Source: Haladaptatus paucihalophilus DX253
Lineage (GTDB): Archaea > Halobacteriota > Halobacteria > Halobacteriales > Haladaptataceae
Direction of reading: 5' to 3'
DNA length: 64,000 nt
Assembly (NCBI RefSeq): GCF_000376445.1
Contig: NZ_AQXI01000003.1
Coordinates: 62,001 to 126,000, forward strand
A model generated the notes under the pieces. The model made no database searches. It worked only from the letters and a program-made list of their open reading frames with translations, and was not told the origin of the DNA. Below, in pieces: positions 27,540 through 46,006 of this stretch (positions are counted from its first letter, which is position 1; every line of letters starts with the position of its first letter). The position numbers were made by a program, and so were the translations under genes.

Positions 27540-28544
27540 CTACTCGCCGTGCCAGTCTAACACGGTCGCCGCCCACGTGTAGCCCGTCCCGGCGGCGAGG
27601 AAGCAAACGACGTCGCCCGATTCGACCAGTCCGTTCTCGAGTCCCGCGTCCAGCGCGAGTATCTGGTCCACGCTCTGGACGTGCCCGAACTCGTCCAGAT
27701 AGTAGTTCGCCGTGTCGAGCGTCGAACAGAGGTAGTCGTGGAACGACCGTTTCATGTGCGTCAGCGCGACGAATCCGAGGTCGTCCCGGTCGTAGTCCGA
27801 CCGCGAGAGCGCGGTGTCGGCCACGTCGAGGAAGTTATCGAGGCTGACCTCGCCCAATCGTTCCTTCATGCCGTCCGGGTCGGGCACGTCCAAGGTGTGG
27901 AGGTCCGCCGCCACGGTCGCCTCGCTGGGCGGGTTGCGCGACCCGCCAGCGGGCATCACCACGTCCTCCGAGAAGCGGCCGTCCGTTATCGCGGCGCTCT
28001 CCCGGACCGTGGCGACGGGGTCGTCCGGCGCTTCTTCGAGCACCATCGCGCACGCCCCGCTGCCGAAGTTGAACATGAACGAAGAGTCCTCGTTCTCGTA
28101 GTTCACGAGGTCCTCCTCCCGACTCGCCGAGACGAGCAGGATTCGCTCCGGGGCGTCCGCGACGAGGGTGGCTTTCGCTTGCCGGAGCGCGATGGGCGCA
28201 CCGGCACAGAGCGCGTAACTCTCGCTGGCGAACGCGTTTTCCGCGCCGATGCGCTCGGCGACGTTCGCCGCGGCGCTCCAGACGACGAAATCCTTGAACT
28301 CGCTGCCGTGATACAGCACCGCGTCGAGGTCAGTGGCTTCGATTCCGGCGTGGGAAAGCGCCCGCTCTGCGGCTTTCACGCACATGTCCGCCGCGTGGTC
28401 GCCGTCCGGCGGGCAAACGTGCTTTTCGCGGATGCCCATCTTCTCGACGACGACTTCCTCGGGAATCGCGCTCCGGCGAGCGATTTCTTCGCCCGTTACC
28501 GTCGCTTCGGGAACGTACAGTCCGTAGCCCGTGAGTCCGACCAT
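27540..28544 (-). CDS. KAS III/HMG-CoA-synthase-like condensing enzyme (3-oxoacyl-ACP synthase III family)
   Basis: Thiolase-fold protein of 334 residues. The nucleophile Cys113 is in SYALCAGAP and the catalytic histidine is His263 in LTHMKRSF. The third FabH residue, Asn274, is His288 here (FGHVQSVDQ), so the reaction likely differs from FabH. It is the last gene of the livKGFHM operon; its ATG shares a base with the livM stop (TAATG). Haloarchaea make no bacterial-type fatty acids, so a role in CoA-thioester catabolism or in an unusual C-C bond reaction of the transported substrate is more plausible. Inference. Confidence 0.88.
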   Translation of the reverse strand: MVGLTGYGLYVPEATVTGEEIARRSAIPEEVVVEKMGIREKHVCPPDGDHAADMCVKAAERALSHAGIEATDLDAVLYHGSEFKDFVVWSAAANVAERIGAENAFASESYALCAGAPIALRQAKATLVADAPERILLVSASREEDLVNYENEDSSFMFNFGSGACAMVLEEAPDDPVATVRESAAITDGRFSEDVVMPAGGSRNPPSEATVAADLHTLDVPDPDGMKERLGEVSLDNFLDVADTALSRSDYDRDDLGFVALTHMKRSFHDYLCSTLDTANYYLDEFGHVQSVDQILALDAGLENGLVESGDVVCFLAAGTGYTWAATVLDWHGE

Positions 28545-29827
28545 TATCTGAACCTCCGGAGCCGTGCGGGAATCTCTTTTGAGACGGGACCGCCGAGGCG
28601 GTCGCGGAGCGTGCCGAGCAACCCGTTCGGGACGAACAACACGAACAGCACGAACAGCGTGCCGACGTAGAGGCTCGCGTGGCCGTTCAGGAACGTCTCG
28701 ATGGCTCCCTGTACCGTCAGGCCGTTGTAAATCGTCGTTCCCATGACGCCCGACCCGAGGTGTGTTCTGAGGTACGGCAGGAGTCCGCCGCCCTCGCCCG
28801 CCTTCGACAGGAACTCGCGGAACGTCTCGTTGAACAGTTGGCCGTACAGCGGTCCGGCGAGGGTGCCGAACCCGCCGATGATGGAGGCCAACAGTGCGTC
28901 ACCCGCGACGAGGAAGTTGAACGACTCGTCCGGGGAGACGGTTCGTTCGTAGCCCGCCAGCAGGCCCCCCGCCACGGCGGCGAAGAAGGCGCTGATGGCG
29001 AACGCGCCGAGTTTGTAGCGGAAGGTGTCGTACCCCACCGCGATGGCGCGTTCCTCGTTTTCGCGGATGGCGACCATCACTTTGCCGAACGGCGAGTGGA
29101 TGATTCGCTGCATGGCGAAGTAGCAGACGAGCACCACGAGACCGATCATGTAGTAGGACACCTCCGTCTGACCGAGGTGGACGAATCCGAGCGATACCTC
29201 GTCACCGGTCAGCGCCCCGATGGAGAGGTTCAGCGCATCGACGCCGGGGACGCCGATATTGAGGCCGTTGGCCCCGTTCAGGAAGATGCCGTCGCGCGGG
29301 TTCGACCCGACGTAATCCCAGCCGCGGACGAAGACGTACAACACCTGCGCGAAGCCGAGGGTTATCATGGCGAAGTAGACCCCCGTCAGGCGGAACGATA
29401 CGGCTCCAATCGCCAGCGCGAGCGCGACGGCGACCAGTCCCGCGACGACGAGCGACACCATGAACGGCGTTCCCGGCGGGAGGAGCGGAATCTTGTCGTT
29501 CGCCGTGAGGATGACGAAGTACGCGCCGGTCCCGTAGAACGCGGCGTGGCCGAACGAGAGGTACCCCGTGTAGCCGCTGATGAAGTCGAACGACATGGCG
29601 AACAGGCCGAAGTAGAGGACGGGTATCATCGTCTCCACGCGCGGGAGGAGCGTCGCCGCCTCCGTCCCGAACGGCGAGTTCACCAGCAGGTGATACAGGC
29701 CGGGATAGGCCGCGAGGAAGGTGATAACCGCGAGGTGGACGATGTGGTCGCGGGTGTACTCTTCGACCCACGAGGCGTCCGTCTCCGAAATCGACCGCTC
29801 CGCGTCCGTTCCGGTTTCGGTGCTAAT
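28544..29827 (-). CDS. livM: Branched-chain-type ABC transporter permease LivM, apparent ATT start
   Basis: Permease with about ten TM helices; core motifs GYTGYLSFGHAAFYG, FVRGWDYVGSNPRDG, FGKVMVAIRENEERAIAVG. A GTG at 29683 starts an ORF of 379 residues, but that would cut off a hydrophobic helix (HLAVITFLAAYPGLYHLLV) that the family has. In frame upstream there is no ATG, GTG or TTG. The reading frame continues to an ATT at 29827 that overlaps the livH TAG by one base and is preceded, 7 nt away, by GGAGGTG. I therefore propose ATT initiation (427 residues), while the shorter GTG form remains possible. Confidence 0.88.
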   Translation of the reverse strand: MSTETGTDAERSISETDASWVEEYTRDHIVHLAVITFLAAYPGLYHLLVNSPFGTEAATLLPRVETMIPVLYFGLFAMSFDFISGYTGYLSFGHAAFYGTGAYFVILTANDKIPLLPPGTPFMVSLVVAGLVAVALALAIGAVSFRLTGVYFAMITLGFAQVLYVFVRGWDYVGSNPRDGIFLNGANGLNIGVPGVDALNLSIGALTGDEVSLGFVHLGQTEVSYYMIGLVVLVCYFAMQRIIHSPFGKVMVAIRENEERAIAVGYDTFRYKLGAFAISAFFAAVAGGLLAGYERTVSPDESFNFLVAGDALLASIIGGFGTLAGPLYGQLFNETFREFLSKAGEGGGLLPYLRTHLGSGVMGTTIYNGLTVQGAIETFLNGHASLYVGTLFVLFVLFVPNGLLGTLRDRLGGPVSKEIPARLRRFR

Positions 29828-30836
29828 GGCCCCCCACCTCCTCGACGCCGAACAGGCCCTGCGGCCGGAGGATGAGGACGACCACGAGGATGAGGAAGAT
29901 GGTCATCTCGGGCAGTCCCGCGAAGTCGATGGCGTTGACGAACCACCACGACATCGCCGCGTCCACCATGCCGACGAGGAGCGCCGCGACGACGGTCCCT
30001 CGGAACGTCCCGAGGCCGCCGACGATGACGACGACGAACGCCGGGAGGAGCGCTTCCGAGGCGACCGGGACGCTGGCACCCCACTTCGGGTCCCACATGA
30101 GCAACACCCCGGCGATTCCGGCCAATCCGGTGCCGAGCGCAAAGACGACGGTGAACACGCGGCGAACGTCGATGCCGAGCGCTTCGGTCATCTCCGCGTC
30201 CTCGCTTCCCGCGCGGATGACGAGTCCGTAGCGGGTCCGGGTCAGGAAGGCCCAGATTCCCGCGACGGTGAGCACGCCGAACGCGATTTCGAAGAGCGCG
30301 AGGCCGTTCACCGAGACGGAGCCGAGTCCGATCTGGTTCGTCAGGAAGCCGGGTTTCGTCCCGAAGGCGTCCTGCCAGTCGGTCTGGGGTTGCATGCCGT
30401 AGAACAGCACTGCGATTCGGACCAGTTCGTTCAGCACGAGCGTCAGCCCGAAGGTGAGCAGAATCTGGTACACCGGCGGGCGGTCGTACAGTTTGCGGAT
30501 GAGGCCGACTTCGACCGCGGTTCCGAGTCCGGCGAGCAGGGCGAAGACGACCACGACGGCCACGAAAAACAGGGCCAACCGCGTGATAGAACTGCCTCCG
30601 GCGGCGACGAACGCGACCATCACCAACCCGCCGAGGTACGCGCCCAACATGGTCAGCGACCCGTGGGCGAAATTCAACACACCCATCAGGCCGAAGATGA
30701 GCGTCAAGCCGCTCGCAATCATCACGTACAGCGCGGCCTTCGCCAACCCCTGAATGAACACCGACGCGAGCGTCGATGGCCGGAGGAAATCCCCCAGCGC
30801 GCTTCCGACCCCCGCGAGCGGAACGAGTTCCATCAT
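29823..30836 (-). CDS. livH: Branched-chain-type ABC transporter permease LivH
   Basis: Integral membrane subunit of 337 residues with about eight TM helices. Family motifs: LTLIFGLMGVLNFAHGSL near the N-terminus, GLVIRAGSEDAEMTEALGID, and FRGTVVAALLVGMVDA. It overlaps livF by 4 nt (ATGA) and livM by up to 5 nt. Members transport branched-chain amino acids, amides, urea or aromatic and other carboxylates, so the substrate is not decided by this gene. Confidence 0.94.
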   Translation of the reverse strand: MMELVPLAGVGSALGDFLRPSTLASVFIQGLAKAALYVMIASGLTLIFGLMGVLNFAHGSLTMLGAYLGGLVMVAFVAAGGSSITRLALFFVAVVVVFALLAGLGTAVEVGLIRKLYDRPPVYQILLTFGLTLVLNELVRIAVLFYGMQPQTDWQDAFGTKPGFLTNQIGLGSVSVNGLALFEIAFGVLTVAGIWAFLTRTRYGLVIRAGSEDAEMTEALGIDVRRVFTVVFALGTGLAGIAGVLLMWDPKWGASVPVASEALLPAFVVVIVGGLGTFRGTVVAALLVGMVDAAMSWWFVNAIDFAGLPEMTIFLILVVVLILRPQGLFGVEEVGGH

Positions 30837-31531
30837 GCCGAGAGATACCTCCGGAGTCGCTCGTCGTCCATCGACACCTCGTTCGCGTCGCCCTGTTCGA
30901 CGACGCGTCCGTTGTCGAGCACGTAGAACCGATCAGCGAGGTCGAGCGCCAGCGGGAGGTTCTGCTCGACCAGCAACAGCGTGGTATCCGTCGCCGCCTC
31001 TGCGAGCGCCTCGGCGACGGCCTCGACGATGAGCGGGGCCAGTCCCTCGCTCGGTTCGTCCACCAGCAGGAGTTCGTTCTCCCCGACGAGACCGCGGACG
31101 AGGGCCAACATCTGCTGTTGACCGCCGCTGAGATTTCCGGCCTCGCGGTCGCGGTGCTCTTCGAGGTCGGGGAACGTCTCGTAGGCGAGCGAGAGGGCCT
31201 CGTGCACGTCCTCCCCGCTCGGCACCGCCACCCGGATGTTCTCCTCGACGGAAAGTTGCGTGAACACCCGCCGCTCCTCGGGAATCCATCCGATTCCCAT
31301 CTCCGCGACTTCGTGGGTGCTCTTGCCGATCAGTTCCGTGCCGCGGAACCGGACGCTCCCCCGCCGCGGCGGGGTCAGTTGGAGGATGGTGCGGAGCGTC
31401 GTCGTTTTCCCGACGCCGTTTCTGCCGACGAGGGCGACGACTTCGCCCGCTTCGACTTCCATCGAGACGCCCTCCAAGACGTGACTCTCGCCGTAGTACG
31501 TGTGGGCGTCCTCGACGGTCAGCAGGCTCAC
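30833..31531 (-). CDS. livF: Branched-chain-type ABC transporter ATPase LivF
   Basis: ATPase of 232 residues. The start is a GTG at 31531 that overlaps the livG stop (GTGA); the open frame extends upstream but is a shadow of livG. Walker A GRNGVGKT, signature LSGGQQQM, Walker B LLLVDEPSEGL, switch His in LLVEQN region. It pairs with LivG. The LivF group lacks the C-terminal extension of LivG. Confidence 0.95.
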   Translation of the reverse strand: MSLLTVEDAHTYYGESHVLEGVSMEVEAGEVVALVGRNGVGKTTTLRTILQLTPPRRGSVRFRGTELIGKSTHEVAEMGIGWIPEERRVFTQLSVEENIRVAVPSGEDVHEALSLAYETFPDLEEHRDREAGNLSGGQQQMLALVRGLVGENELLLVDEPSEGLAPLIVEAVAEALAEAATDTTLLLVEQNLPLALDLADRFYVLDNGRVVEQGDANEVSMDDERLRRYLSA

Positions 31532-32295
31532 GCGATACCCTCCTCGACCTCGTAGCCGCCAAGGTACGCCTTTTGCACGTTCGGGTCGTCCCGCACCGAC
31601 TCCGGCGTGTCGTCGGCGATGACAGACCCCTGATTCAACACGACGATGCGGTCGCTGACGCGCATCACGATGTCCATGTTGTGTTCGACCAGCAGCACCG
31701 CGTGGTCCTCGGCCACGTCCTCGATGAGGTCGATTATCGTCCCCACGCTCTCGGAAGAGACGCCCGCGTTCGGTTCGTCGAGCAGGAGTACGTCCGGGTC
31801 GCCCGCGAGCGCGATGGCGACCTCCAACTGGCGCGTCTGGCCGTGGCTCAGGTTCCCCGCCGTCGTCTCGGCGAAGTCGTCGAGTTCCACGCGCTCCAGA
31901 ATCGCGTGGGCCTCTTCGGTGTGCTCCGGGAACGCCCTCGCGTTTCGAATCGGATTGGCCGACCCGTCCCCGTGTGCCTGCACCGCGACGCGGACGTTTT
32001 CGAGGACGGTACTCGTCGGGAAAACGTTCGTTATCTGGTAGGACCGGTGGAGTCCTAACCGCGCCGTCTCGTGGGGCTCCGTCCCCGTGATGTCCCGCCA
32101 CGACCCGTTCGTTCGGAATTCGATGCTGCCCTCGCTCGGCGCGAGCACGCCGGTCAACAGGTTGAAAAACGTCGTCTTGCCCGCCCCGTTCGGCCCGATG
32201 AGCGAACACAGTTCGTCCGCTTCGAGCGTAAAATCCACGTCATCGACGGCGACCAAGCCGCCGAACCGTCTCGTCAGCCCCGTAGTTCGGAGCAT
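31528..32295 (-). CDS. livG: Branched-chain-type ABC transporter ATPase LivG
   Basis: ATPase of 255 residues. Walker A GPNGAGKT, signature LSHGQTRQLE (a common LivG variant of LSGG), Walker B VLLLDEPNAGVS. It ends VQKAYLGGYEVEEG, the typical LivG tail. Only 1 nt separates it from the end of the binding-protein gene upstream. It begins right after livK in the operon. Confidence 0.95.
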   Translation of the reverse strand: MLRTTGLTRRFGGLVAVDDVDFTLEADELCSLIGPNGAGKTTFFNLLTGVLAPSEGSIEFRTNGSWRDITGTEPHETARLGLHRSYQITNVFPTSTVLENVRVAVQAHGDGSANPIRNARAFPEHTEEAHAILERVELDDFAETTAGNLSHGQTRQLEVAIALAGDPDVLLLDEPNAGVSSESVGTIIDLIEDVAEDHAVLLVEHNMDIVMRVSDRIVVLNQGSVIADDTPESVRDDPNVQKAYLGGYEVEEGIA

Positions 32296-32296
32296 G

Positions 32297-33712
32297 TTAG
32301 AGCGAGCAGGACATTCCGGCCGCGTCCTTCGGGATGGTCGCCTCCTCTCCCTCGATGGTGGCGAGCGGCTCGCCGGGCATGACGGCGGCGTCCCAGTTGT
32401 CTGCCCACTCGTCCGTGGTCGGGACTGGGTTGGCGACGGTCATCGAAGAGCGGGCCTGATTGTTGTACTTCTGGAAGACGTAGCCGCCCTCTCCCTTCGG
32501 CGTGTCTTTCACGGTCATACCGCGCATGGCCTCCGCGATGTCGGTCCCTTTGGTGGAACCGCTCTGGTGGACGCCCTGCACGATGGCCGATGCGGCGGTG
32601 AAGGTGCCCGAAGTGAACAGGTCCGGAACGACGCCGTAGGCCTTGGTGTACGAATCGACGAACGAGGTGTTGATATCGTTGTCGTACTGGTTCCAGTGAT
32701 AGCGGGTCGTGAACGGGCCGAGTTTCGTCTTCTCTATCTTCTCTTTCGTCAGCGGTTTGCCGATGACTTTCTGCATCGTCTGGCCGACCACCTTGTTCGT
32801 GATTTGGGTCGCAAAGCCGCCGAAGACGCGGTAGTCGTAGCTTCCGGAGAGGTATTCGGTGAACAGGTTCGGGAGCGTGGCGACGGTGAATCCGCCGACG
32901 ATTCCCTGTGCGCCCGCATCCTGTGCCTTGTCGAGCAGGCCCTTCCACTCCGAGTGCTCCTGCGGGACGAACTTCTTGCCGACGATTTCGACGCCTTCGT
33001 CCTCGAGTACCTGCTCGTAGTTGTTCACGACGGCCTTGCCGAAACTGTAGTCGGCCCCGAACAGGTACACCTTCTTCACGTCGGTTTCCTTGGCGACGTA
33101 CTTCCCGCCGCTTCGGGCGTCCATCGCGGTGTTCTCGCTCGCGCGGAAGACGAGGTTGTTGCACGTCTCGCCGTCCGAGGTGATGGATGCAGACGCGGCC
33201 GGTCCGGCGACGTACGGCACGCCGCTCGCCTTGGCCACCGTCTTGATGACCGTCGTCGCCGAGGACGACGACGCACAGCCGAAGAGCATATCGACCTTCT
33301 GGTCCGTCACGAGGTTCGTCGCCAGTTTCTTGGCCTTGCTCTGGGAGAACCCGGTGTCGCGGACGTACAGTTCGAAATCGGTGTCGCCGACCGACACGAC
33401 CGTTTTCCCGCTCTTGACGCCCGTCTTCGGGTCGGCGTCGGCTTTGTAGGCCAGTCCCGAAAGGAAGCCCCACAGGCTCTGTTGTCCGTAGTATTTGAGG
33501 CTCCCCGAAATCGGTTGGAGAACGCCGATTTTCACCGTCCCCGATACGTTCTTGGTCGTCGTCATGCCACCCGTTCCATTGTCGTTCCCCGATTTGTCGT
33601 CGTTCGTCGTATCGTTTGTGTCATCGTTTCCAGTGCACCCTGCCAATCCGGCAATCCCGACCGCACCCGCCGACGTGAGGACGTTGCGCCGTGTCAGTCT
33701 CCGCCTTGTCAT
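32297..33712 (-). CDS. livK: Substrate-binding lipoprotein of the Liv-type ABC transporter (LivK-like)
   Basis: Receptor of 471 residues. The ATG at 33712 gives a Tat signal with lipobox (RRRLTRRNVLTSAG, then LAGC), followed by a Asp/Asn/Thr-rich linker and a periplasmic-binding-protein type I fold: VKIGVLQPISGSLKYYGQQSLWG, DTGFSQSKAKKLATNLV, VDMLFGCASSSSATTV. The N-terminal cysteine is expected to be lipid-modified after Tat export. First gene of the operon livKGFHM-KAS III; a shared palindromic motif lies 39-54 nt upstream. Amide or short-chain carboxylate receptors share the same fold, so specificity is open. Confidence 0.94.
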   Translation of the reverse strand: MTRRRLTRRNVLTSAGAVGIAGLAGCTGNDDTNDTTNDDKSGNDNGTGGMTTTKNVSGTVKIGVLQPISGSLKYYGQQSLWGFLSGLAYKADADPKTGVKSGKTVVSVGDTDFELYVRDTGFSQSKAKKLATNLVTDQKVDMLFGCASSSSATTVIKTVAKASGVPYVAGPAASASITSDGETCNNLVFRASENTAMDARSGGKYVAKETDVKKVYLFGADYSFGKAVVNNYEQVLEDEGVEIVGKKFVPQEHSEWKGLLDKAQDAGAQGIVGGFTVATLPNLFTEYLSGSYDYRVFGGFATQITNKVVGQTMQKVIGKPLTKEKIEKTKLGPFTTRYHWNQYDNDINTSFVDSYTKAYGVVPDLFTSGTFTAASAIVQGVHQSGSTKGTDIAEAMRGMTVKDTPKGEGGYVFQKYNNQARSSMTVANPVPTTDEWADNWDAAVMPGEPLATIEGEEATIPKDAAGMSCSL

Positions 33713-33750
33713 ACCACCTATACCGGGAGTTACGAGCGGCAAATACTGCA

Positions 33751-33791
33751 GGGTTAACATGTGAACAGAACGGAATCGGGCCGGTTCACAT
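33751..33791. promoter_or_regulatory. Divergent livK/SDR promoter with candidate operator A
   Basis: GGGTTAACATGTGAAC (33751-33766) is an imperfect palindrome. Its right half ATGTGAAC is repeated inverted at 33784-33791 (GTTCACAT), giving an 8-17-8 inverted repeat. It lies 39 nt from the livK start and 44 nt from the dehydrogenase start. A near-identical 16-mer occurs at 38839-38854. Confidence 0.6.
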
Positions 33792-33834
33792 ATCAACCGT
33801 GGATTTTTCCTCGCTATCGCTCGGAGTTTGAAAT

Positions 33835-34692
33835 ATGGCAGACGACGCGGTAACGCCGCCGACGTTCGACCCCGACGAGGTACTGCACGTCGAAGACGAC
33901 CACTTCACGCCCGAGAACGTGGCTATCGTGACGGGCGCGGCCTCCGGAATCGGTCGTGCGACGACGCTCGCGCTCGCCGCGAACGACCTCACGGTGGTCG
34001 GGACGGACGTGGACGAGGACGGCCTGGCCGAGACGACCGACCGCGCCGAGGAGTTGGAACTCGGACGAAACGTCGAAACGGTAGTTGCCGACCTCACCGA
34101 CGAGGACGAGATAGACCGCATCGTCTCCCACGCGGCGGACGCGGGCGCGGTGAAATATCTGGTCAACGTCGCCGGACTCCAGCACATCGACCCCATCGAC
34201 GAGTTCCCGGCCGAGCGGTTCGACCTGCTCCACGACGTGATGGTCCGCGCGCCGTTCCTGCTGGCGAAGGCCTGCCTGCCCCACATGCGCGAGAGCGGCG
34301 ATGGAACGGGCTGTATCGGCAACATGGCGTCGGTTCACGGCCACTACACCACCTCCGATAAGGTGGCCTACAACGTCTCGAAGTTCGGCCTCCGCGGCCT
34401 CACGCAGTCCCTCGCCGCCGAGGGCGACGGCGACGTTCGCGCCTTCTCGGTCAGCACGGGCTACGTGAAGACGCCGCTCGTGACGGACCAGATACCGGAC
34501 ACCGCCGAACAGCGCGGTATCAGCGTGGACGAGGTGGTCGAGGACGTGATGCTGGGCCAAGCGCGGACGAAGGACATGATGACGCCGCAGGACGTGGCGA
34601 ACCTGTTCGTCTTCGGCTTCTCCAAACACGCGGACCACCTGAACGGCGGCGACCTGCTGTTCGACGGTGGCATGACGTTGACCTACGAGTGA
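33835..34692 (+). CDS. Short-chain dehydrogenase, 3-hydroxybutyrate dehydrogenase-like
   Basis: SDR of 285 residues with an acidic N-terminal extension of about 25 residues. Cofactor motif VTGAASGIGRA, NVAGLQH (NNAG variant), Ser in NMASVHG, and YNVSK (YxxxK). The block GLQHIDPIDEFPAERFD followed by ASVHGHYTTSDKVAYNVSKFGLRGLT is close to 3-hydroxybutyrate dehydrogenases. Its divergent orientation from livK across the operator suggests a joint role in breakdown of the transported acid. Other 3-hydroxyacyl substrates are possible. Confidence 0.88.
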   Translation: MADDAVTPPTFDPDEVLHVEDDHFTPENVAIVTGAASGIGRATTLALAANDLTVVGTDVDEDGLAETTDRAEELELGRNVETVVADLTDEDEIDRIVSHAADAGAVKYLVNVAGLQHIDPIDEFPAERFDLLHDVMVRAPFLLAKACLPHMRESGDGTGCIGNMASVHGHYTTSDKVAYNVSKFGLRGLTQSLAAEGDGDVRAFSVSTGYVKTPLVTDQIPDTAEQRGISVDEVVEDVMLGQARTKDMMTPQDVANLFVFGFSKHADHLNGGDLLFDGGMTLTYE

Positions 34693-34862
34693 GAACCGTC
34701 GTGACGTCCGACCGACTCGCGGAGGACGGCGTGTCCGTCGAACACCGGGACTACGAGGCGATGGTACACGGCTTTGCCAACATGCTCGGCGTCGTGGACA
34801 CGACGGACGAGTTTTTCGCCTACGCTGGCGAGCGACTACGGAGTACGTTCGAGGGAGAATAA
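34689..34862 (+). pseudogene. C-terminal fragment of an alpha/beta hydrolase (esterase)
   Basis: An open frame overlaps the SDR stop and encodes 57 residues: SDRLAEDGVSVEHRDYEAMVHGFANML, VVDTTDEFFAYAGERL. This is the end of an HSL-type carboxylesterase including the catalytic-triad histidine in the MVHGF motif; the nucleophile and acid domains are absent. It is therefore most likely a remnant of a gene deleted or replaced next to the dehydrogenase. If translated it could not be a hydrolase. Confidence 0.72.
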
Positions 34863-34865
34863 CGT

Positions 34866-35567
34866 TCAGTCGAGCAGTTCTAGCGCGTCCACGACGCGCT
34901 GTATCATCTTTCGCTGTCCGCGGCGGAGGTTCTTCGAGACGGCGGGTTTCGAGACGCCGAACTCGTCGGCCAGCGTGCCGAGGGTGGCCGACCGCGGACT
35001 CTGGAAGTAGCCGTCCCTGACGGCGTGTTCGAGCGTCTCGCGCTCCACGTCCGAGAGGTCCCGACAGCCGTCGATGAGCGTCATCGCGGCCCCCGCGTTC
35101 TGCACGAGGTTCTGTAGGTCCGGCAGGTCGGGCGTTTCGCGCGATACGACCTCGAACTCGTTGTTCCATTCGAGTTCCGAGAGCGCGCCCTCCGCGACGT
35201 CCTCGTGATCGAAGCCGACGTGCCACAGTTCGTGGCCGTCCTCGATGTAGAACGGGCCGGTGATGTAGCCGTCGTGGTTGCGGATGGACTCCATCGCCTC
35301 CGTCTGCCCGATGGTGGTTCGGATGTGCGCGACGTTCTCCCGCTTCGACAGCAGGGAACAGTCGTGCATGTTGTCGTGTTCGCGGAGCGCCCGTAGACCG
35401 TGTTCGAGTTCGGTTCGGTCGTCACCCTCGACCACCAACCGCGTCTCCAACTCCTCCCGCGCTCGATCGAAATCCCAGTGAACGGCCGAGTACGCCACGC
35501 CGTAATCGTCGGAGGAGTCGATGAACGGGCAGTCGTACTGCTCCATGTCCATCGTGAGGTCTATCAT
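34866..35567 (-). CDS. HTH-10 (bacterio-opsin activator-like) transcriptional regulator
   Basis: Protein of 233 residues. The N-terminal half is the haloarchaeal input domain; residues 175-225 are the HTH-10 domain: SDVERETLEHAVRDGYFQSPRSATLGTLADEFGVSKPAVSKNLRRG. Regulators of this type are usually pathway-specific. Situated between the transporter/SDR unit and the ligase/hydrolase unit, it is the natural candidate to bind the shared palindrome. That link is an inference. A TATA box is expected near 35595-35605. Confidence 0.88.
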   Translation of the reverse strand: MIDLTMDMEQYDCPFIDSSDDYGVAYSAVHWDFDRAREELETRLVVEGDDRTELEHGLRALREHDNMHDCSLLSKRENVAHIRTTIGQTEAMESIRNHDGYITGPFYIEDGHELWHVGFDHEDVAEGALSELEWNNEFEVVSRETPDLPDLQNLVQNAGAAMTLIDGCRDLSDVERETLEHAVRDGYFQSPRSATLGTLADEFGVSKPAVSKNLRRGQRKMIQRVVDALELLD

Positions 35568-35683
35568 TATCGTTCGCTCTGTTACCGCGGAACATACGTA
35601 AGACGAGTTAAAATAGTTTCCTTATCGCTCGTTGCTGGCTGATTTCTCCTGTCGATAGTGAAAAAAGGCGGTGACGTCGATAT

Positions 35684-35887
35684 TCACGGACCGGTTGCAT
35701 TCTCCTCGTTGCGTCGCAGATACTGAAAGACGAGTGCGAACGCCAGCCCACCGGCGGCACCCGTAATCACGGGGGCAACCAGTGCCCCGTCGAAGACGAA
35801 CACACTGAGCACACCCCATATCCCCGCCCACAGCACGACTATGATGGTCGAGTAGACCCATGGATTTTCGAGGCTGAAGACATCCAT
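35684..35887 (-). CDS. Small two-TM membrane protein, paralogue of the 36012 gene
   Basis: Protein of 67 residues starting MDVFSLENPWVYSTI. The open frame extends 78 codons upstream, but that part is basic, glycine-rich and unlike coding sequence. Two TM helices (about residues 12-32 and 38-57) and a charged tail LRRNEENATGP. It is similar in order of residues to its neighbour at 36012 (E-P-V, IxVLxxxxWxxxxVxxF, GA-GG/CG-FxLxxxF), so the pair looks like a tandem duplication. Lower G+C than surrounding genes. Function unknown. Confidence 0.6.
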   Translation of the reverse strand: MDVFSLENPWVYSTIIVVLWAGIWGVLSVFVFDGALVAPVITGAAGGLAFALVFQYLRRNEENATGP

Positions 35888-36011
35888 AGCTGAAATTGGT
35901 TTTACACTACCATATCTGTGTTGGAAATATATGCCGTTCAGTATCTCTCTCGTAGCTATCGAACCGTCCGTTCGAAAGGGTACGACGACGCTCGACGGAA
36001 ACTGACTCGAA

Positions 36012-36218
36012 TCACGCGTCGCCCCCCCCCCGCCGTTTCCGCCATCGGTCGAAGACGTAGATGAGGGACAGAAAGAATCCGCACCTCGCACCGGACACCG
36101 CTTGGTTAACCGGACGTTCACCGAAGAAGAGAACTCCTATAGTCACCCACGCCACTGCACTGAGGATGATCATTCCGGGTACGAAGACCGACGGTTTTTC
36201 CGGGCGCATTTTCTTCAT
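36012..36218 (-). CDS. Small two-TM membrane protein, paralogue of the 35684 gene
   Basis: Protein of 68 residues: MKKMRPEKPSVFVPGMIILSAVAWVTIGVLFFGERPV and NQAVSGARCGFFLSLIYVFDRWRKRRGGGDA. Two TM helices with a positive cytoplasmic tail. The C-terminal GGG is encoded by a run of ten C on the plus strand, which is a possible slippage site affecting only the last residues. It is a paralogue of the next gene downstream on the same strand. Function unknown. Confidence 0.62.
   Translation of the reverse strand: MKKMRPEKPSVFVPGMIILSAVAWVTIGVLFFGERPVNQAVSGARCGFFLSLIYVFDRWRKRRGGGDA
36022..36031. repeat. Homopolymer of ten C
   Basis: A run of ten C (G on the coding strand) near the 3' end of the 36012 gene. 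Length changes here would shift the last four or five codons. It is the longest single-base run noticed in the window. Confidence 0.85.
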
Positions 36219-36304
36219 TACGACACCATTGTTCCGGACATCAGATCAGAATTAGCTCCCTAAATCCAAACTCCTTTTCTAGCCCGACGAATCGGATTCG
36301 ACGG

Positions 36305-38005
36305 CTATTTCGCCTCCCCGAACTCCGACTTCACCGCTTCCCTATCTATCTTCGACGGCCCGGACATCGGCATCCCGTCCACGAACGCGAGGTGGCGCGG
36401 GCGCTTGAACCGCGCGAGTTTGCCGTCGAGAAACGCCTCCAAATCGGATAGCGTGAGCGACTCGTCACCCTCGACGACCGCTTTTCCGACCTGTCCCCAC
36501 TTCTCGTGGGGGACGCCGACTACGACGACTTCCTCGACCTTCGGGTGGTCGGCGATGACGTCCTCGACTTCGGCGGGGTAGACGTTCTCGCCGCCGCTGA
36601 CGTACATGTTCTTCTTTCGGCCCTCGATGTAGACGTAGCCGTCCTCGTCCACGCGCGCGAGGTCGCCCGTGGACACCCACTCGCCGGTAGATTCGCGCCC
36701 CTCGTCTTCCGGGCTTCCATTCGCCTCGCTCACGGGTATCCCGAACGTCTCCGCGCTCTCCTCCGGATTCTTCCAGTAGCGGTCGGCGGCGTGGGGCGAG
36801 GCGAGTTCGAGTTCGCCGATGGTCCCTGACGGGAGCGGTTCGCCGTCGTCGTCCACGACGCGGGCATCGACGTGCATTGCGGGAACGCCCACGCTGTCGG
36901 ATTTCTCGTGGGACCAGCCGTCCGGCAGGGTGAAGTTGTTCGGTCCGCACTCGGTGAGCCCGTAGCCCTGCGAGAGTTCGATGCCGCGGTCCCACCACGC
37001 CTCCATCACCGAGTTGCGGCACGGGCCGCCGCCGCTCTTGGCGAAGCGGAGCGTCGAGAGGTCGGTGTCGTCCCACTCGTCGTGGTGACACATCATCCGC
37101 AGGACGGCGGGGACCGCGACGAGGACGGTCGCCCCTTCCGACTCCACCAGTCGGAGCACGGACTCGGGGTCGAACTCGCGGGCGATGACCACCCGCGCGC
37201 CGAGGTGGAAGAGGGGGACCGTGAGGACGTTCCACCCGCCGGTGTGGAACAGCGGGAACACCATCGGCGTCACGTCCTCCGGGCGCAACCCCCACGCAGT
37301 GATGGTGTTGAAGGAGTTCCAGAGGACGGAGCCGTGGGTGATGACCGTCTCCTTCGGGACGCCCGTGGAACCGCCCGTGTGCAGGAAGAGGTGCGGGTCG
37401 TCCATCGACACGTCGGCGGTTTCGACCGGCGAACCGTCCACCGGACGGACCGAATTCCACGACCGCCATTCGTCCTCTCTCCATTCGTCCCCCCGCCATT
37501 CGCCCTCTCGTGATTCGGCCGCGTGCGATGCGGACCCGTCCGACGGGTCCGAATCGCTTTCCGACGAATCCTCGTCCGCCGGGAGCGTGACGACCGTCGT
37601 TTCGAACTCGCGGGCGTCGTGGGACAGCACGTCGGCGGCGAGCTCGGCGAAGGGCGCTTCCACGACGAGCAGTTCCGGTTCGACGTCGTTCAGCATCTGC
37701 ACCAGTTCGCGCGGTGCGAGGCGGTGTGAGAGCGGTGCGAGCACGCCGCCGGTCTTCCCGGTGGCGAAAAAGCAGTCGATGAGTTCCGGACGGTTGCGCG
37801 AGAGGACGGCGACGCGCTCGCCGTCGGCAACCCCGTGTTCGCGGAGCAGTCGGGCGGTGCGGTTCGCCCGTCGGTCGAGTTCGCGGTAGGTGTAGCGCTC
37901 GCCCGTGGTGGCGTCTACCAGCCCCACCGCGTCGGGAGAGAGTTGCGCCCGCTTTTCGCTCCACGCGCCGACCCATTCGTACGGCCGCGTCGAGTGCTCA
38001 GGCAT
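36305..38005 (-). CDS. Acyl-CoA ligase/synthetase (AMP-forming)
   Basis: ANL-superfamily enzyme of 566 residues. It activates a carboxylic acid with ATP and CoA. Phosphate-binding loop HTGGSTGVPKE, A5 QGYGLTECGP, A7 STGDLARVDEDGYVYIEGRKKNMYVSGGENV, catalytic lysine near GPSKID. Residues 145-190 are a polar insertion with four degenerate EWR-type repeats made by a 15-nt tandem DNA repeat. It overlaps the hydrolase gene by 8 nt and so forms one transcript with it. The natural acid is unknown. Confidence 0.93.
   Translation of the reverse strand: MPEHSTRPYEWVGAWSEKRAQLSPDAVGLVDATTGERYTYRELDRRANRTARLLREHGVADGERVAVLSRNRPELIDCFFATGKTGGVLAPLSHRLAPRELVQMLNDVEPELLVVEAPFAELAADVLSHDAREFETTVVTLPADEDSSESDSDPSDGSASHAAESREGEWRGDEWREDEWRSWNSVRPVDGSPVETADVSMDDPHLFLHTGGSTGVPKETVITHGSVLWNSFNTITAWGLRPEDVTPMVFPLFHTGGWNVLTVPLFHLGARVVIAREFDPESVLRLVESEGATVLVAVPAVLRMMCHHDEWDDTDLSTLRFAKSGGGPCRNSVMEAWWDRGIELSQGYGLTECGPNNFTLPDGWSHEKSDSVGVPAMHVDARVVDDDGEPLPSGTIGELELASPHAADRYWKNPEESAETFGIPVSEANGSPEDEGRESTGEWVSTGDLARVDEDGYVYIEGRKKNMYVSGGENVYPAEVEDVIADHPKVEEVVVVGVPHEKWGQVGKAVVEGDESLTLSDLEAFLDGKLARFKRPRHLAFVDGMPMSGPSKIDREAVKSEFGEAK
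37464..37523. repeat. Four degenerate 15-nt tandem repeats inside the acyl-CoA ligase gene
   Basis: Units CGCCATTCGTCCTCT, CTCCATTCGTCCCCC, CGCCATTCGCCCTCT and CGTGATTCGGCCGCG follow each other without gaps. They encode the repeated EWR/EDEWR-like insertion and keep the frame. Confidence 0.8.
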
Positions 38006-38801
38006 CGTCGAGGAAGGTTCGGAGTCGTTCGTTTACCGCCCCGGACTGCTCGATGAAGAAGAGATGTGGTCCGCCCTCGAAGGGTTCGAGTTCCGCGTGC
38101 GGGATGCGGTCGGCGAGCAGTTCGGCGTTCTCGAAAGGTAGTACGCTGTCCGCGGTTCCGTGCGCGATGAGGGTCGGGAGCGAGAGTTCACCGAGACGGT
38201 CGCTGGCGTCGAAGTTCGTGACGCCCATCGCCTGTGCTCCCCTCGCTTCGTCGGACGCGTCACCCGCCAGTCGCCAGTCCACGATGTCCGAGAGGAGGTC
38301 GTCGTGCTCCGCGGCGAACTCCTCGGTCATCGCGGGGGCCATCTTGTAGCGAATCGCCTCGCGTTCGTCGCACCCCTCGGGCACGTCGAACATCCGTTCC
38401 TGCGTCTCCGGCGGCGTCGGCACCCCCTCGTCGCCGCCCGGCGTGGTGCAGAGGAGAGAAAGCGTCTGCGCCCGGTTGTAGTCGAGCGCGTACTGCTGGG
38501 CTATCATCCCGCCCATGCTCGCACCGACGACGTGTACCGATTCGACGCCGACGGCCGCGAGTACCGCTTCGAGGTCGCCCGCCATCTCCTCGATGCTGTA
38601 GGGACCGTCCGGCGCGTCGGAATCCCCCGTCCCGCGGTTGTCCCACACGATGACGCGATAGTCGTCCGCGAACGCCTCGCGTTGCCAGCGCCACATCCAC
38701 CGCCCGTAGCCGAGTCCTTCCACGAAAACGATGGGGTCGGCGTCCGTCGGTCCGTGCTCCTCGTAGTAGAGCGAAACGCCGTCGTTGTCGGTAAATGGCA
38801 T
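37998..38801 (-). CDS. Alpha/beta hydrolase, 3-oxoadipate enol-lactonase/haloperoxidase-like
   Basis: Protein of 267 residues. Oxyanion region VFVEGLGYGRWMWRWQ, nucleophile Ser in VGASMGGMIAQ, acid Asp in HGTADSVLP, and His in EGGPHLFFIEQ. The start at 38801 (MPFTDNDGVSLYYEE) is preferred over the longer frame. Ester or lactone hydrolysis is expected. It is the first gene of a two-gene unit with the ligase; a palindromic operator lies 38-53 nt upstream. Confidence 0.9.
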   Translation of the reverse strand: MPFTDNDGVSLYYEEHGPTDADPIVFVEGLGYGRWMWRWQREAFADDYRVIVWDNRGTGDSDAPDGPYSIEEMAGDLEAVLAAVGVESVHVVGASMGGMIAQQYALDYNRAQTLSLLCTTPGGDEGVPTPPETQERMFDVPEGCDEREAIRYKMAPAMTEEFAAEHDDLLSDIVDWRLAGDASDEARGAQAMGVTNFDASDRLGELSLPTLIAHGTADSVLPFENAELLADRIPHAELEPFEGGPHLFFIEQSGAVNERLRTFLDDA

Positions 38802-38838
38802 GCGTATTGCGACGTATGAGCGTGTAATCAACCCCCTG

Positions 38839-38854
38839 TTTTACATGTTAACCC
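38839..38854. promoter_or_regulatory. Candidate operator B, divergent hydrolase/MaoC promoter
   Basis: TTTTACATGTTAACCC on the plus strand. Its complement GGGTTAACATGTAAAA matches operator A at 33751 in 14 of 16 positions, including 12 consecutive. The site is 38-53 nt from the hydrolase ATG, nearly the same spacing as operator A from livK, and 35-50 nt from the MaoC ATG. Confidence 0.6.
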
Positions 38855-38888
38855 GGAGATTCATTCCGGCCGGGGACCGAGTTCGGGT

Positions 38889-39281
38889 ATGCCAGTCGCA
38901 TCCGTCGGGGACTCCGAAACGGCAACGTTGGAACTGACGCAGGAACGAATCGACCGGTTCGCGGCGCTCACCGGCGACGAGAACCCGCTCCACGTGGACG
39001 CCGACTACGCCGAGGACGGACTGTTCGGGGGTCGCGTCGCCCACGGTGCGCTCACGGCCAGCGTCGTCAGCGCCGCGCTCGCGGCGCTCCCCGGCGACAT
39101 CGTGTATCTCTCCCAGAACATCGACTTCGAGAATCCCGTCCGGCCGGGGGAAACCGTCAGCGCGACGGCGACCGTGACCGAGGATTTGGGCACGGACCGC
39201 CTCGCGGTGGAAATCAGCGCGGAAACCGACCGGGAAGTCCTCTCCGGCGAGGCGACAGTCATGTCGCTTCCGCACGAATAG
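38889..39281 (+). CDS. MaoC-family (R)-enoyl-CoA hydratase-like protein
   Basis: Hot-dog fold of 130 residues with the hydratase 2 motif FAALTGDENPLHVDADYAED, including the catalytic Asp and His, then LFGGRVAHGALTAS and VRPGETVSATATV. It should hydrate a 2-enoyl-CoA to (R)-3-hydroxyacyl-CoA. It is divergent from the hydrolase-ligase pair across operator B, consistent with CoA-ester catabolism. Confidence 0.92.
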   Translation: MPVASVGDSETATLELTQERIDRFAALTGDENPLHVDADYAEDGLFGGRVAHGALTASVVSAALAALPGDIVYLSQNIDFENPVRPGETVSATATVTEDLGTDRLAVEISAETDREVLSGEATVMSLPHE

Positions 39282-39283
39282 GG

Positions 39284-39742
39284 TCACCAACCGTATCGCC
39301 CTGTTTCTGCGCCACAAACTTCGCAGTAGAACACGACTTCGCCGTCCGACTCTTCGGGGACTGCTGGCGTTCGCTCCTCACACGACGGGCACGTTCGGCG
39401 GAGGTCCATCGGTTCGTCGCTACGCGGCGCACCGAGTGCGAGGACGACGAGTCGGTCGCCCCCGTCGTTCCTCCCCTGTTGCCACTCGCCCGGTGCGAAC
39501 CGTATCAGTTCCCCGGCGTCTACTTCGACATCTCCGTCCTCGGTTTCGAACGTCGCCGTGCCCGAGAGGACGTAGAACACTTCCTCCTGCTTGTGATGGC
39601 GGTGATAGCAATCGCCGATGTGTTCGCCGGAAGCGCGTTCGTAGTAGTTGAGTGCGAGGCCGGTAGCCCCGAGCGCTTCGGTGAGCGGTTGGAATGCGCG
39701 GGACGCGTGGCCGTTCGTATCCTCTATTGCGACTTTCTTCAT
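39284..39742 (-). CDS. Cupin-domain protein with C-terminal zinc ribbon
   Basis: Protein of 152 residues. Cupin motif 1 is HRHHKQEEVFYVLSGTATFET and motif 2 EWQQGRNDGGDRLVVLALG, with metal-binding His/Glu. The C-terminus has CPSCEE and CEVCG, a zinc ribbon. The start at 39742 (MKKVAIEDTN) is chosen over the longer frame by comparison to the conserved beginning. It converges on the MaoC gene with two bases between the stops. Function unknown; often a sensor or small-molecule enzyme. Confidence 0.88.
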   Translation of the reverse strand: MKKVAIEDTNGHASRAFQPLTEALGATGLALNYYERASGEHIGDCYHRHHKQEEVFYVLSGTATFETEDGDVEVDAGELIRFAPGEWQQGRNDGGDRLVVLALGAPRSDEPMDLRRTCPSCEERTPAVPEESDGEVVFYCEVCGAETGRYGW

Positions 39743-39858
39743 CTCGTGTGGATTCACGTGGATGTCGATAATGGTTTTCCACACCCCGAAAGTGCCGCCG
39801 AACTACCGACTCGTATCGCCCGCTGTACTTTTACCTGTGCCCGTTGCTCACATGAGCC

Positions 39859-41205
39859 ATGACGACGACAGCAGAACTCGCGGATTTCGTCGCGGAAACG
39901 ACCTACGATGATCTTTCGGAGGACACGGTGGACGAACTCAAAAAGCGGGTGCTCGACTCGGTGGGAATCGCCGTGGGAGCGATGGGCGAAAAACCCGTCG
40001 AGGCGGTTCGCGCGACCGTCGAGGAGATGGGTGACGGCGGGGACTGTACGCTCTGGGGTGGCGGAAGCGCGTCCCCGCCGGACGCGACCATGCTGAACAC
40101 GGCGTACGTCCGGTATCTCGACTACATGGACTCGTTTCTCGCACCCGGCGAGACGCCGCATCCGAGCGACAACATCGCCGCCGCAATCGTGTGCGGGGAG
40201 TACGAGGGGTGTACGGGGGAAGACCTCATCACCGCCATCGCCGTCGCGTACGAGGTGCAGGCCGAACTGGCGTGGAACGCGCCAGTTCGGGACAGAGGAT
40301 GGGACCACGTTACCCACACCGTCATCTCGGCGACGGCGGGCGCGTCGAAACTGCTCGGGTTGGACCGCGAGGAAACCCGGTCCGCCATCGGCATCGCCGG
40401 AACCGCGCACAACGCCCTCCGGGTGACGCGGACCGAGGGCATTTCGGAGTGGAAGGGTCTCGCCTCAGCGAACGCCGCGCGAAACGCCGTCTACTCGGCG
40501 ATGCTGGCGAAAAACGGCGTCGAGGGGCCGACGAACCTCTTCGAGGGGCAAAAGGGATGGAAGCATATCGTCTCCGGCGAGTTCGACGTCGACCTGTCGC
40601 CGGGCGAGCGCGTCCACGACGTGATGACGAAGCGGTACGTCGCCGAGACGTACGCCCAGTCGGCCGTCGAGGGAATCATCGAGTTGGCGAAGCGCGAGGA
40701 CATCGACCCCGACGACGTGGAATCGATTCACCTCGATACGTTCGCGGGTGCGAAACTCATCATCGGCGGCGGCGAGGGGTCGCGCTACGAGGTGGAGACG
40801 AAGGCGCAAGCCGACCACTCCCTGCCATACATGCTCGCCGTGTCGCTCATCGACCGCGAGATGACGAACGCGCAGTACGACCCGGACCGAATCCGACGGG
40901 ACGACGTACAGGAACTCCTTCGAACCGTCGAAGTGGAGGAGGACGGGGACCTCACGGACCGCTTCGAGGCGGGCGAGATGCCCGCGAACATCGACGTGGT
41001 GATGGACGACGGCACGACGTACCACGTCGAGAAGGACGACTTCGCGGGCCATCCGAACAACTCGATGTCGTGGGAACAGGTTGAATCGAAGTTCGAGCGG
41101 ATGACCGAATCCCGATACGACGAAGCGCACCGGGGGGACATCATCGAGACGGTACGCGGACTCGAAGACCGGGATGCCGACGACATCGTGCGGTTACTCG
41201 ACTAA
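39859..41205 (+). CDS. MmgE/PrpD family protein (2-methylcitrate dehydratase-like)
   Basis: Protein of 448 residues covering the whole family: LKKRVLDSVGIAVGAMG, DATMLNTAYVRYLDYMDSF (the DxxD region), GWDHVTHTVISATAGASKLLGL, and GYKHI-like GWKHIV. Members include 2-methylcitrate dehydratase (propionate catabolism) and cis-aconitate decarboxylase. No prpB, prpC or acn gene is adjacent, so the substrate is uncertain. It is divergent from the cupin gene. A role in degrading a short-chain or branched acid fits the neighbouring cluster. Confidence 0.92.
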   Translation: MTTTAELADFVAETTYDDLSEDTVDELKKRVLDSVGIAVGAMGEKPVEAVRATVEEMGDGGDCTLWGGGSASPPDATMLNTAYVRYLDYMDSFLAPGETPHPSDNIAAAIVCGEYEGCTGEDLITAIAVAYEVQAELAWNAPVRDRGWDHVTHTVISATAGASKLLGLDREETRSAIGIAGTAHNALRVTRTEGISEWKGLASANAARNAVYSAMLAKNGVEGPTNLFEGQKGWKHIVSGEFDVDLSPGERVHDVMTKRYVAETYAQSAVEGIIELAKREDIDPDDVESIHLDTFAGAKLIIGGGEGSRYEVETKAQADHSLPYMLAVSLIDREMTNAQYDPDRIRRDDVQELLRTVEVEEDGDLTDRFEAGEMPANIDVVMDDGTTYHVEKDDFAGHPNNSMSWEQVESKFERMTESRYDEAHRGDIIETVRGLEDRDADDIVRLLD

Positions 41206-43260: not shown

Positions 43261-44085
43261 ATGACCGACAGAGCATTCGACTTTCTGCACGTCAACGAGC
43301 GCGAATCGAAACCGCGGGAGAAGGGAATCACCGAGATGCGCGGGCCGTACTACGACCCGATGGGGCCGCGCGAACTGCAGGACATCCTCGACACGATGGG
43401 CGAGTACGTGGACATCTACAAGTTCTCGGGCGGGTCGTTCGCACTGATGCCCGAGGACGTGGTGGAGGAACTCATCACCGTCTGCCACGAGTACGACGTT
43501 CAGGTTTCGACCGGGGGATTCATCGAGAACGTCCTCGTCCGCGACAACGACAAGGTAGAACGGTACATCGAGGAGGCCGGAAACCTCGGTTTCGACATCG
43601 TGGAAATCTCCTCGGGATTCATCGCCATCGACACCGACGACCTCGTGGAACTGACCCGACTCGTTCAGGACCACGGCCTGAAGGCCAAGCCCGAAATCAA
43701 CGTCCAATTCGGCGCTGGCGGGGCCTCTTCGGTCGAGGAACTGGAGAGCGAGGCGGCCATCGACCCCGCGAGCGCCATCGAGGAGGCTCACCGCCATCTC
43801 GAAGCAGGCGCGTACAAAATCATGGTCGAATCCGAAGGAATCACCGAGCGCGTCCGCGACTGGCGGACCGACGTGGCCTTCGAGATAGCGAACGAGGTCG
43901 GCATCGAGAACTGCGTGTTCGAGGCCGCCGACCCGCAAGTCTTCGAGTGGTACATCAAGAACTTCGGGCCGGAGGTGAACCTGTTCGTGGACAACTCCCA
44001 AATCGTCGAGTTGGAGTGTATGCGTTCGGGACTGTGGGGGAAGAAGAGTTCGTGGGGACGCGTGGTGTCGTACGACGAGGAATAG
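43261..44085 (+). CDS. Phosphosulfolactate synthase/ComA family protein
   Basis: (beta/alpha)8-type protein of 274 residues starting MTDRAFDFLHVNERESKPREKGITEMRGPYY. The family core is clear: VDIYKFSGGSFALMPED, VSTGGFIENVL, GFDIVEISSGFIAID, KPEINVQFGAGG. In methanogens ComA makes phosphosulfolactate from PEP and sulfite in coenzyme M synthesis. Haloarchaea do not make methane, and the plant homologue HSA32 has no such role, so the true substrate here is open. Sulfolactate or sulfonate metabolism is possible. The start at 43261 is preceded by TTTAGTA at 31-37 nt. Confidence 0.9.
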   Translation: MTDRAFDFLHVNERESKPREKGITEMRGPYYDPMGPRELQDILDTMGEYVDIYKFSGGSFALMPEDVVEELITVCHEYDVQVSTGGFIENVLVRDNDKVERYIEEAGNLGFDIVEISSGFIAIDTDDLVELTRLVQDHGLKAKPEINVQFGAGGASSVEELESEAAIDPASAIEEAHRHLEAGAYKIMVESEGITERVRDWRTDVAFEIANEVGIENCVFEAADPQVFEWYIKNFGPEVNLFVDNSQIVELECMRSGLWGKKSSWGRVVSYDEE

Positions 44086-45926: not shown

Positions 45927-46006
45927 TCGAGAACTCGTTCGTCGGCGTTCGTATAGGTGATTTCGGTCGGGGTACCCGCCGACTCGATTCCGGCGCGGGT
46001 TCGTGC

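Follow-up and report, generated by a model that had tools for sequence, protein, structure and literature searches.

Archaeal activators whose binding sites and targets are both known are few. Bat, the bacterioopsin activator of Halobacterium salinarum, reportedly belongs to the PF04967 family, and a palindromic upstream activating sequence (UAS) is said to lie upstream of the TATA box of bop. A protein with this domain, here called HTH-10 (34866..35567, minus strand), is encoded in the stretch under study, a 64-kb window on a 364-kb contig (C3) of the 4.3-Mb genome of the haloarchaeon Haladaptatus paucihalophilus DX253, and very probably regulates the genes that are preceded by a conserved 14-bp palindrome. 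Like Bat, HTH-10 is a haloarchaeal regulator with a C-terminal helix-turn-helix, but Bat carries GAF and PAS/PAC domains according to PMC2253796, whereas the window protein has an HVO_2525_N domain instead, a different site and a catabolic set of targets. The window sites also bear a likeness to the UAS of GvpE, which, according to PMC4390858, is adjacent to the TFB-recognition element (BRE), overlaps between divergent promoters and depends on close spacing. GvpE, however, resembles a leucine-zipper protein, while the window regulator is a helix-turn-helix protein for which activation is a prediction.

Haloferax mediterranei possesses a relative (61%) of the short-chain dehydrogenase/reductase (SDR) from the window, and it adjoins a patatin-like gene; we take this pair to be bdhA and phaZh1. 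In that organism, polyhydroxyalkanoate (PHA) is degraded by means of the (R)-enoyl-CoA hydratase PhaJ1 and the depolymerase PhaZh1, and the available text of the report describes no HTH-10 regulation of this mobilisation (PMC4823750). The Haloferax system acts on intracellular granules, whereas that of the window genome combines an extracellular-type depolymerase with an importer. TrmB and IclR are likewise local regulators of uptake and catabolism operons, with DNA-binding families that differ from HTH-10. For bacterial IclR, the co-evolution of motifs has been studied (PMC8222616). For the HVO_2525_N/HTH_10 subfamily, no report of a site was found in the open-access literature, subscription papers not being covered.

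The comparisons described below, which are of sequences throughout, make it probable that HTH-10 presides over a small regulon that serves the catabolism of polyhydroxybutyrate from outside the cell, and of its monomer, the identity of the substrate being included in that estimate. The element at issue is the palindrome GTTNACATRTNAAC, of which there are three sites in the window. The initial annotation had reported that GGGTTAACATGTGAAC at 33751-33766 and GGGTTAACATGTAAAA (complement of 38839-38854) match at 14 of 16 positions, 12 of them in a row, and that they lie 39 nt and 38 nt from the start codons of livK (33712) and of an alpha/beta hydrolase gene (38801); the agreement holds, with the run of 12 at the beginning, and the distances equal the coordinate differences. 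Both sites are present in two divergent promoter regions as it had claimed, but a third copy in the SDR promoter had been overlooked, and the opposite orientations, while as read, are uninformative because the element is a palindrome. Putative operator 1 (GTTAACATGTGAAC, 33753..33766) begins at -54 from the livK ATG; putative operator 2 (GTTCACATATCAAC, 33784..33797) begins at -51 in the SDR promoter and ends 37 nt before the start codon; and putative operator 3 (TTTTACATGTTAAC, 38839..38852), which has one mismatch, is a single site between the divergent promoters of the hydrolase (-51) and a MaoC-like gene (-50), 37 nt and 36 nt from the respective start codons. In all four units (livK, SDR, hydrolase and MaoC) the site therefore begins 50-54 nt upstream of the start codon. 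A search of the window for the core with up to three mismatches gave seven matches, including overlapping both-strand matches of the same sites, against 0.85 expected, and seven was reached in none of 100 shuffles.

The same promoters are conserved across many genera. Eighty cluster regions, picked for diversity and not randomly, were examined, and in the window and 42 further loci a site with at most one mismatch, starting between -60 and -47, was found in 71 of 91 livK, hydrolase, MaoC and SDR promoters, compared with none in 300 Markov shuffles; the patterns counted (GTTNAYATRTNAAC or GTTNGTATATCAAC) had been selected after such sites had been seen, and the 91 promoters are not independent, as a single site lies before both genes where hydrolase and MaoC diverge. 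Hydrolase and MaoC sites tend to start at -50 or -51, those of livK at -51 to -56. Furthermore, an unbiased count of 6-mers in 19 livK promoters ranks ACATGT at the top (16 observed, 0.47 expected). At one locus (L201, from G234), the hydrolase and MaoC promoters are more widely separated and a separate palindrome precedes each of them at the customary distance, which supports one site per promoter.

The SDR, 91% identical to its homologue in Haladaptatus sp. DYF46, the nearest named relative found, was also used as a starting point: 47 loci were found through it, of which the 34 haloarchaeal ones (L054-L087) were used and L088-L100 were not. A site with at most one mismatch lies within 300 nt upstream of the SDR match in 24 of these 34 loci, a count made without a shuffle control, and the genera concerned are Haladaptatus, Halorussus, Halogranum, Natrialba, Natrinema, Haloarchaeobius, Haloarcula, Halorubellus and further relatives. 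An HTH-10 homologue was detected at E 1e-40 in 29 of the 33 genomes that could be searched; the SDR site is present in 24 of these 29 versus none of the four without a homologue (Fisher p 0.003, uncorrected for ancestry).

Loose versions of the palindrome are not specific. With two mismatches allowed, there are 115 strand matches in the whole genome versus 109 for the reversed control, and with three mismatches there are 22 matches in the window versus 25 expected, so that neither search shows enrichment and only the tight sites are informative. The exact livK palindrome, GTTNACATGTNAAC, occurs at a single place in 18 of 24 whole genomes, where the reversed control gave 0 in all 24, and by coordinates every one of the 18 places is the livK promoter of this cluster; the other six genomes have one-letter variants at livK. 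In the window genome, operator 1 is the sole exact copy. The matches with one mismatch (L003-L009 and L011-L013) were checked as open frames in 3-kb stretches: one (L006) belongs to a sister regulon, another (L005) stands 46 nt before a PHA depolymerase frame, and a third, GTTGACATCTGAAC at C1:1027830 (L004), lies 58 nt upstream of an LSM-domain gene, which may be chance. Judged by eye, the remainder showed nothing comparable.

The regulator itself matches HTH_10 (PF04967) at its C-terminus (55.6 bits, cut-off 23.1) and HVO_2525_N at its N-terminus (46.5 bits, cut-off 27); HTH_20 falls below the cut-off in Pfam, and the GAF and PAS/PAC domains characteristic of Bat were not found. Its AlphaFold2 model (mean pLDDT 85.5, pTM 0.61) contains helices at 196-203 and 207-232. 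In a fold search the best matches were peptidases of low TM score, while the C-terminal part matched the -35-binding domain of an ECF sigma factor (3hug, TM to target 0.60-0.66); the best other match, 5m86, was weak (TM to query 0.41). The initial annotation had put HTH-10 forward as a plausible regulator, and this proposal gains from its distribution as well as from the variation of the palindrome with its recognition helix. Among 391 genomes of the class, the KAS III gene of the cluster was matched in 96 and HTH-10 in 196, paralogues included, HTH-10 being present in 95 of the 96 KAS III genomes versus 101 of the 295 others. The sole exception, G199, has neither HTH-10, liv genes nor site near its KAS III gene.

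Homologues differ at the two positions with which the recognition helix starts (K207-P208 in the window protein), and the livK palindrome varies alongside: SKP (class A) is paired with GTTNACATGTNAAC, SDT (class B) with GTTNGTATAYCAAC and STA (class C) with GTTAACATCTTAAC. In the AlphaFold2 model these residues form the start of the recognition helix. Of 88 loci, 70 were entered, a livK site and a helix of class A, B or C being required together with livM, livG and KAS III; 67 are concordant (SKP-A 39, SDT-B 16, STA-C 12), three are ties and none is a contradiction. Family f4 holds both SKP and SDT, and family f5 both SKP and STA. HTH-10 is encoded far from the cluster in G174 and G124, and its helix class still matches the motif. 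In four further genomes with the gene outside the cluster (G213, G046, G139 and G254, the last with the gene on another contig), the motif was read before the regulator was translated, and all four match. In genome searches, 16 of the 20 genomes assigned to class B (a set in which the helix of G325 was not read) contained the class B pattern, always in the cluster, as against none of 10 others; the class C pattern was found once per genome, beside HTH-10, in all 16 genomes from a single genus, in 11 of which the helix was read, and in none of 10 others. Helix and palindrome thus change together consistently, which falls short of statistical proof. In addition, L235, L236, L211 and L237 (from G302 and G180, genus g48) have a KAS III homologue without a nearby liv cluster, and an HTH-10 protein with a further helix type, SAPAFSKN.

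The predicted regulon is not confined to 27540-39281, as it also takes in a secreted PHA depolymerase encoded on a different replicon. A copy of the palindrome with one mismatch, ATTTACATATTAAC, is located at C1:1069009 on the main replicon, 46 nt upstream of the gene (C1:1069069-1070058), whose product scores 288.2 bits against NF050058 (extracellular short-chain PHA depolymerase type 1, cut-off 150) and belongs to Pfam Esterase_PHB. Depolymerase genes are found here in tandem (C1:1069009-1071047; L005, L240, L253), with the palindrome before the first copy. A gene for a glycosyl hydrolase of family 18 lies just upstream of the pair. Among 36 chosen genomes, 13 (two being the same genome) have a depolymerase homologue, and 12 of 12 distinct first-copy homologues are preceded by a site with at most one mismatch at -55 to -60, of which 500 shuffles gave none; this count omits L245 and L260, duplicates of L244 and L259. 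Second tandem copies have the site in one of seven cases. A search of the class yielded 12 further, more distant homologues, five with a site of at most one mismatch starting between -70 and -41 (none in shuffles), which in G159 is an exact GTTAACATGTTAAC. The depolymerase gene lies about 570 nt from HTH-10 in G183 and about 240 nt from it in G277. Together with an SDR that resembles 3-hydroxybutyrate dehydrogenases, the palindrome before the depolymerase suggests that the substrate is extracellular polyhydroxybutyrate, scavenged from the surroundings.

A second HTH-10 protein, HTH10b (C1:1616111-1616797), is 54% identical to that of the window and has the helix SKTAASNN. About 2.7 kb away from it, CTTTACATATCAAC stands before a sodium:solute symporter (PF00474) operon with the spacing seen in the window (C1:1619516; L239:7100-10530), and related sites of such operons are present in L208, L209, L210, L057 and L087. 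An AMP-binding ligase gene (L239:241-2202) is also found near this operon. A further class, with helix SKMA(I/V)SKN and GTATACATGTCAAC, occurs in Haloarcula, Halorubellus and relatives, where the system comprises paralogous liv genes (33-42%) and an SDR (L070, L072-L075, L077, L078, L064 and L165).

In the mechanism proposed, HTH-10 would bind the palindrome, probably as a dimer, and control livKGFHM-KAS III, the hydrolase-ligase pair and MaoC, while the SDR and the secreted depolymerase, which have related sites, would be under HTH-10, HTH10b or both. The depolymerase would release 3-hydroxybutyrate or oligomers for uptake by the Liv-type transporter, whose genes, all on the minus strand, encode a livK-like substrate-binding protein (Peripla_BP_6 in Pfam, 32297..33712), livG-like (31528..32295) and livF-like (30833..31540, start codon inferred) ATP-binding proteins, and livH-like (29823..30836) and livM-like (28544..29683) permeases. 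The alpha/beta hydrolase (37998..38801, minus strand), the AMP-forming acyl-CoA ligase (36305..38005, minus strand), the SDR (33835..34692, plus strand), the MaoC-like hydratase (38889..39281, plus strand) and the KAS III-like enzyme (27540..28544, minus strand) would channel the products into acetyl-CoA, the order of steps and the part of the KAS III-like enzyme being conjectural. The ligand of HTH-10 would be 3-hydroxybutyrate or its CoA ester.

Profile comparisons assign these enzymes to families with varying precision. The SDR has 3-hydroxybutyrate dehydrogenase models as its best NCBIfam matches, though below the cut-off (TIGR01963, 229.8 bits, cut-off 307.05), and the hydrolase is nearest to PcaD, the 3-oxoadipate enol-lactonase, again below it (TIGR02427, 140 bits, cut-off 255.85). 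The nearest solved structures to the ligase are fatty-acyl-CoA and feruloyl-CoA synthetases. The KAS III-like protein exceeds the cut-off of the NCBIfam equivalog PRK06840 (403.2 bits, cut-off 315) and stays below that of the FabH profile TIGR00747 (109.4 bits, cut-off 292.1); the GNTSAAS stretch of FabH aligns with its GHVQSVD. The catalytic asparagine of FabH, at the position we presume it to hold, would be a histidine in this protein. Across 43 loci, HTH-10 was counted in 38, livKGFHM in 26-35, the ligase in 27, KAS III in 26, the hydrolase in 25, MaoC in 14 and the SDR in 13, figures that are rough because the gene caller missed genes and many loci had been selected for HTH-10.

With regard to how HTH-10 would act, the window sites end about 7 nt upstream of a weak TATA-like box, and in the 71 promoters, which represent the four promoter types of the cluster, the A/T fraction reaches 0.80-1.00 at positions 8, 9, 11 and 12 after the site. 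From this peak, the TATA box would lie at 8-12, with the BRE in the gap, such that a conserved site stands at a nearly fixed distance upstream of BRE and TATA box, as a UAS beside a BRE does. Leaderless mRNAs make up 72% in Haloferax volcanii, and the published consensus elements are CGAAA (BRE) and TTWT (TATA-like), according to PMC4983044; since haloarchaeal transcripts mostly lack a leader, the start codon can stand in approximately for the transcription start. A BRE with four of five positions plus a TATA-like box was found in 11 of 193 targets versus 26 of 79 HTH-10 promoters, and with three of five in 21 of 193 versus 63 of 79. The combination of weak core promoters with a site next to the BRE suits an activator, GvpE being a parallel. 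A regulator bound at the site could touch TFB or the TATA-binding protein, and activation seems fairly probable and likelier than repression.

Several observations weigh against this account of a regulon under HTH-10. On the side of covariation, which was tested on livK sites only, the tree shows three helix and three motif changes with one independent pair, too few events for a significance test; moreover, classes A and C are separated by one fixed base, L207 and L216, though counted as concordant, each differ from their own class at two positions, and in classes B and C the sites before hydrolase and MaoC do not keep to the livK consensus (GTTGATACTCGAAC, GTTGAAACGTTAAC and GTTCGAGGCTGAAC are examples). 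The presence of HTH-10 in 38 of 43 loci is not independent evidence, the loci having been partly selected for it. No good site is found at the expected place in 20 of the 91 promoters, in part through misassigned starts, and the hydrolase promoters of L158 and L164 have none nearby (best, five mismatches). The promoter of HTH-10 itself lacks a site with at most one mismatch within 200 nt upstream in all 40 loci, and autoregulation was rejected on that ground. Among the 12 more distant depolymerase homologues, seven have their site outside the expected interval or lack one (two at -100 and -110, five none), and the depolymerase occurs in 21 of 382 genomes of the class, far fewer than the cluster. 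Finally, the weakness of the TATA-like box shows in a stricter test (five of six A/T), by which 107 of 193 targets have none.

That the palindrome is a chance match or a general core-promoter element would agree with its being as frequent as the reversed control at two mismatches, but the position and conservation of the tight sites far exceed shuffles and controls, and this explanation is hardly credible. It is also improbable that another, distant regulator reads the palindrome, with HTH-10 a chance neighbour: while in several genomes HTH-10 is encoded at a distance or on a different contig, and its binding is a prediction, its helix and the motif change jointly, including in the six genomes with the gene outside the cluster, the four genomes without a homologue at E 1e-40 have no site upstream of the SDR, and no other regulator was seen by eye in gene clusters common to at least four of the 43 loci. 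The division of labour between HTH-10 and HTH10b is a closer matter. The initial annotation had assigned all four units to one regulator, which is supported for livK, hydrolase and MaoC but may fail for the SDR. Operator 2 matches NTTNACATATCAAC, the class of the sister regulator, at every position, the SDR adjoins HTH10b with a site of that class in L057, L087 and L210 (G123, of the window's genus), and G123, with no KAS III match and a single HTH-10 match of the b type, retains the depolymerase site. Conversely, the SDR site fits GTTNACATRTNAAC as well; the SDR lies inside the HTH-10 cluster in the window, L054, L055 and Halorussus loci; its site in L061 and L067 is GTTCACACGTTAAC; and G174 and G124, where the only HTH-10 match is of SKP type, have GTTAACACGTTAAC and GTTAACGTGTGAAC before the depolymerase. 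There is a little under an even chance that the SDR, and perhaps the depolymerase, is mainly under HTH10b while the window regulator governs three units, and both genes may answer wholly or partly to the sister protein.

Repression is common for uptake operons, and a site that abuts the BRE position is where a repressor, too, would work, by keeping TFB off until released by a ligand. However, near-fixed spacing in four promoter types and poor core promoters fit activation better, and the GvpE activator reportedly needs a close UAS-BRE distance (PMC4390858), so that a repressor is the clearly less likely form of HTH-10. A regulon correctly drawn but devoted to another acid, for instance an aromatic or branched one, is unlikely, though less so than repression. 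The structures nearest to the ligase, the proximity of the hydrolase to PcaD and the restricted occurrence of both the SDR and the depolymerase would suit such a substrate; the palindrome before the PHA depolymerase in two sets of genomes and the closeness of the SDR to 3-hydroxybutyrate dehydrogenases favour polyhydroxybutyrate instead.

The HVO_2525_N/HTH_10 proteins might tentatively be regarded as a haloarchaeal family of local activators for the scavenging of hydroxyacids from PHAs. Paralogues would each govern a different importer, either a Liv-type ABC system or a sodium symporter, while having the dehydrogenase and the secreted depolymerase in common, and residues 207-208 (KP, DT, TA, KM, KT) would act as a code for the palindrome; we hold this generalisation at somewhat less than even. 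Were it true, the protein sequence would suffice to predict operator and regulon for many HTH-10 proteins that await characterisation. The regulon proposed here would tie a widespread uncharacterised module (KAS III gene in 96 of 391 sampled genomes of the class) to natural polyester degradation in brines. The regulator, operator, predicted targets, likely substrate and two-residue specificity hypothesis all derive from sequence and are testable.

Adjoining the regulon in the window, at 39284-41205, are divergent cupin and MmgE/PrpD genes without the palindrome. Farther along, a gene for a phosphosulfolactate synthase (ComA)-like protein (43264-44085; 103.2 bits, NCBIfam cut-off 280) is followed by an aldo/keto reductase gene (44165-44983), and at 45030-47584 a protein of the purine nucleoside permease family is encoded beside a thiamine pyrophosphate enzyme.

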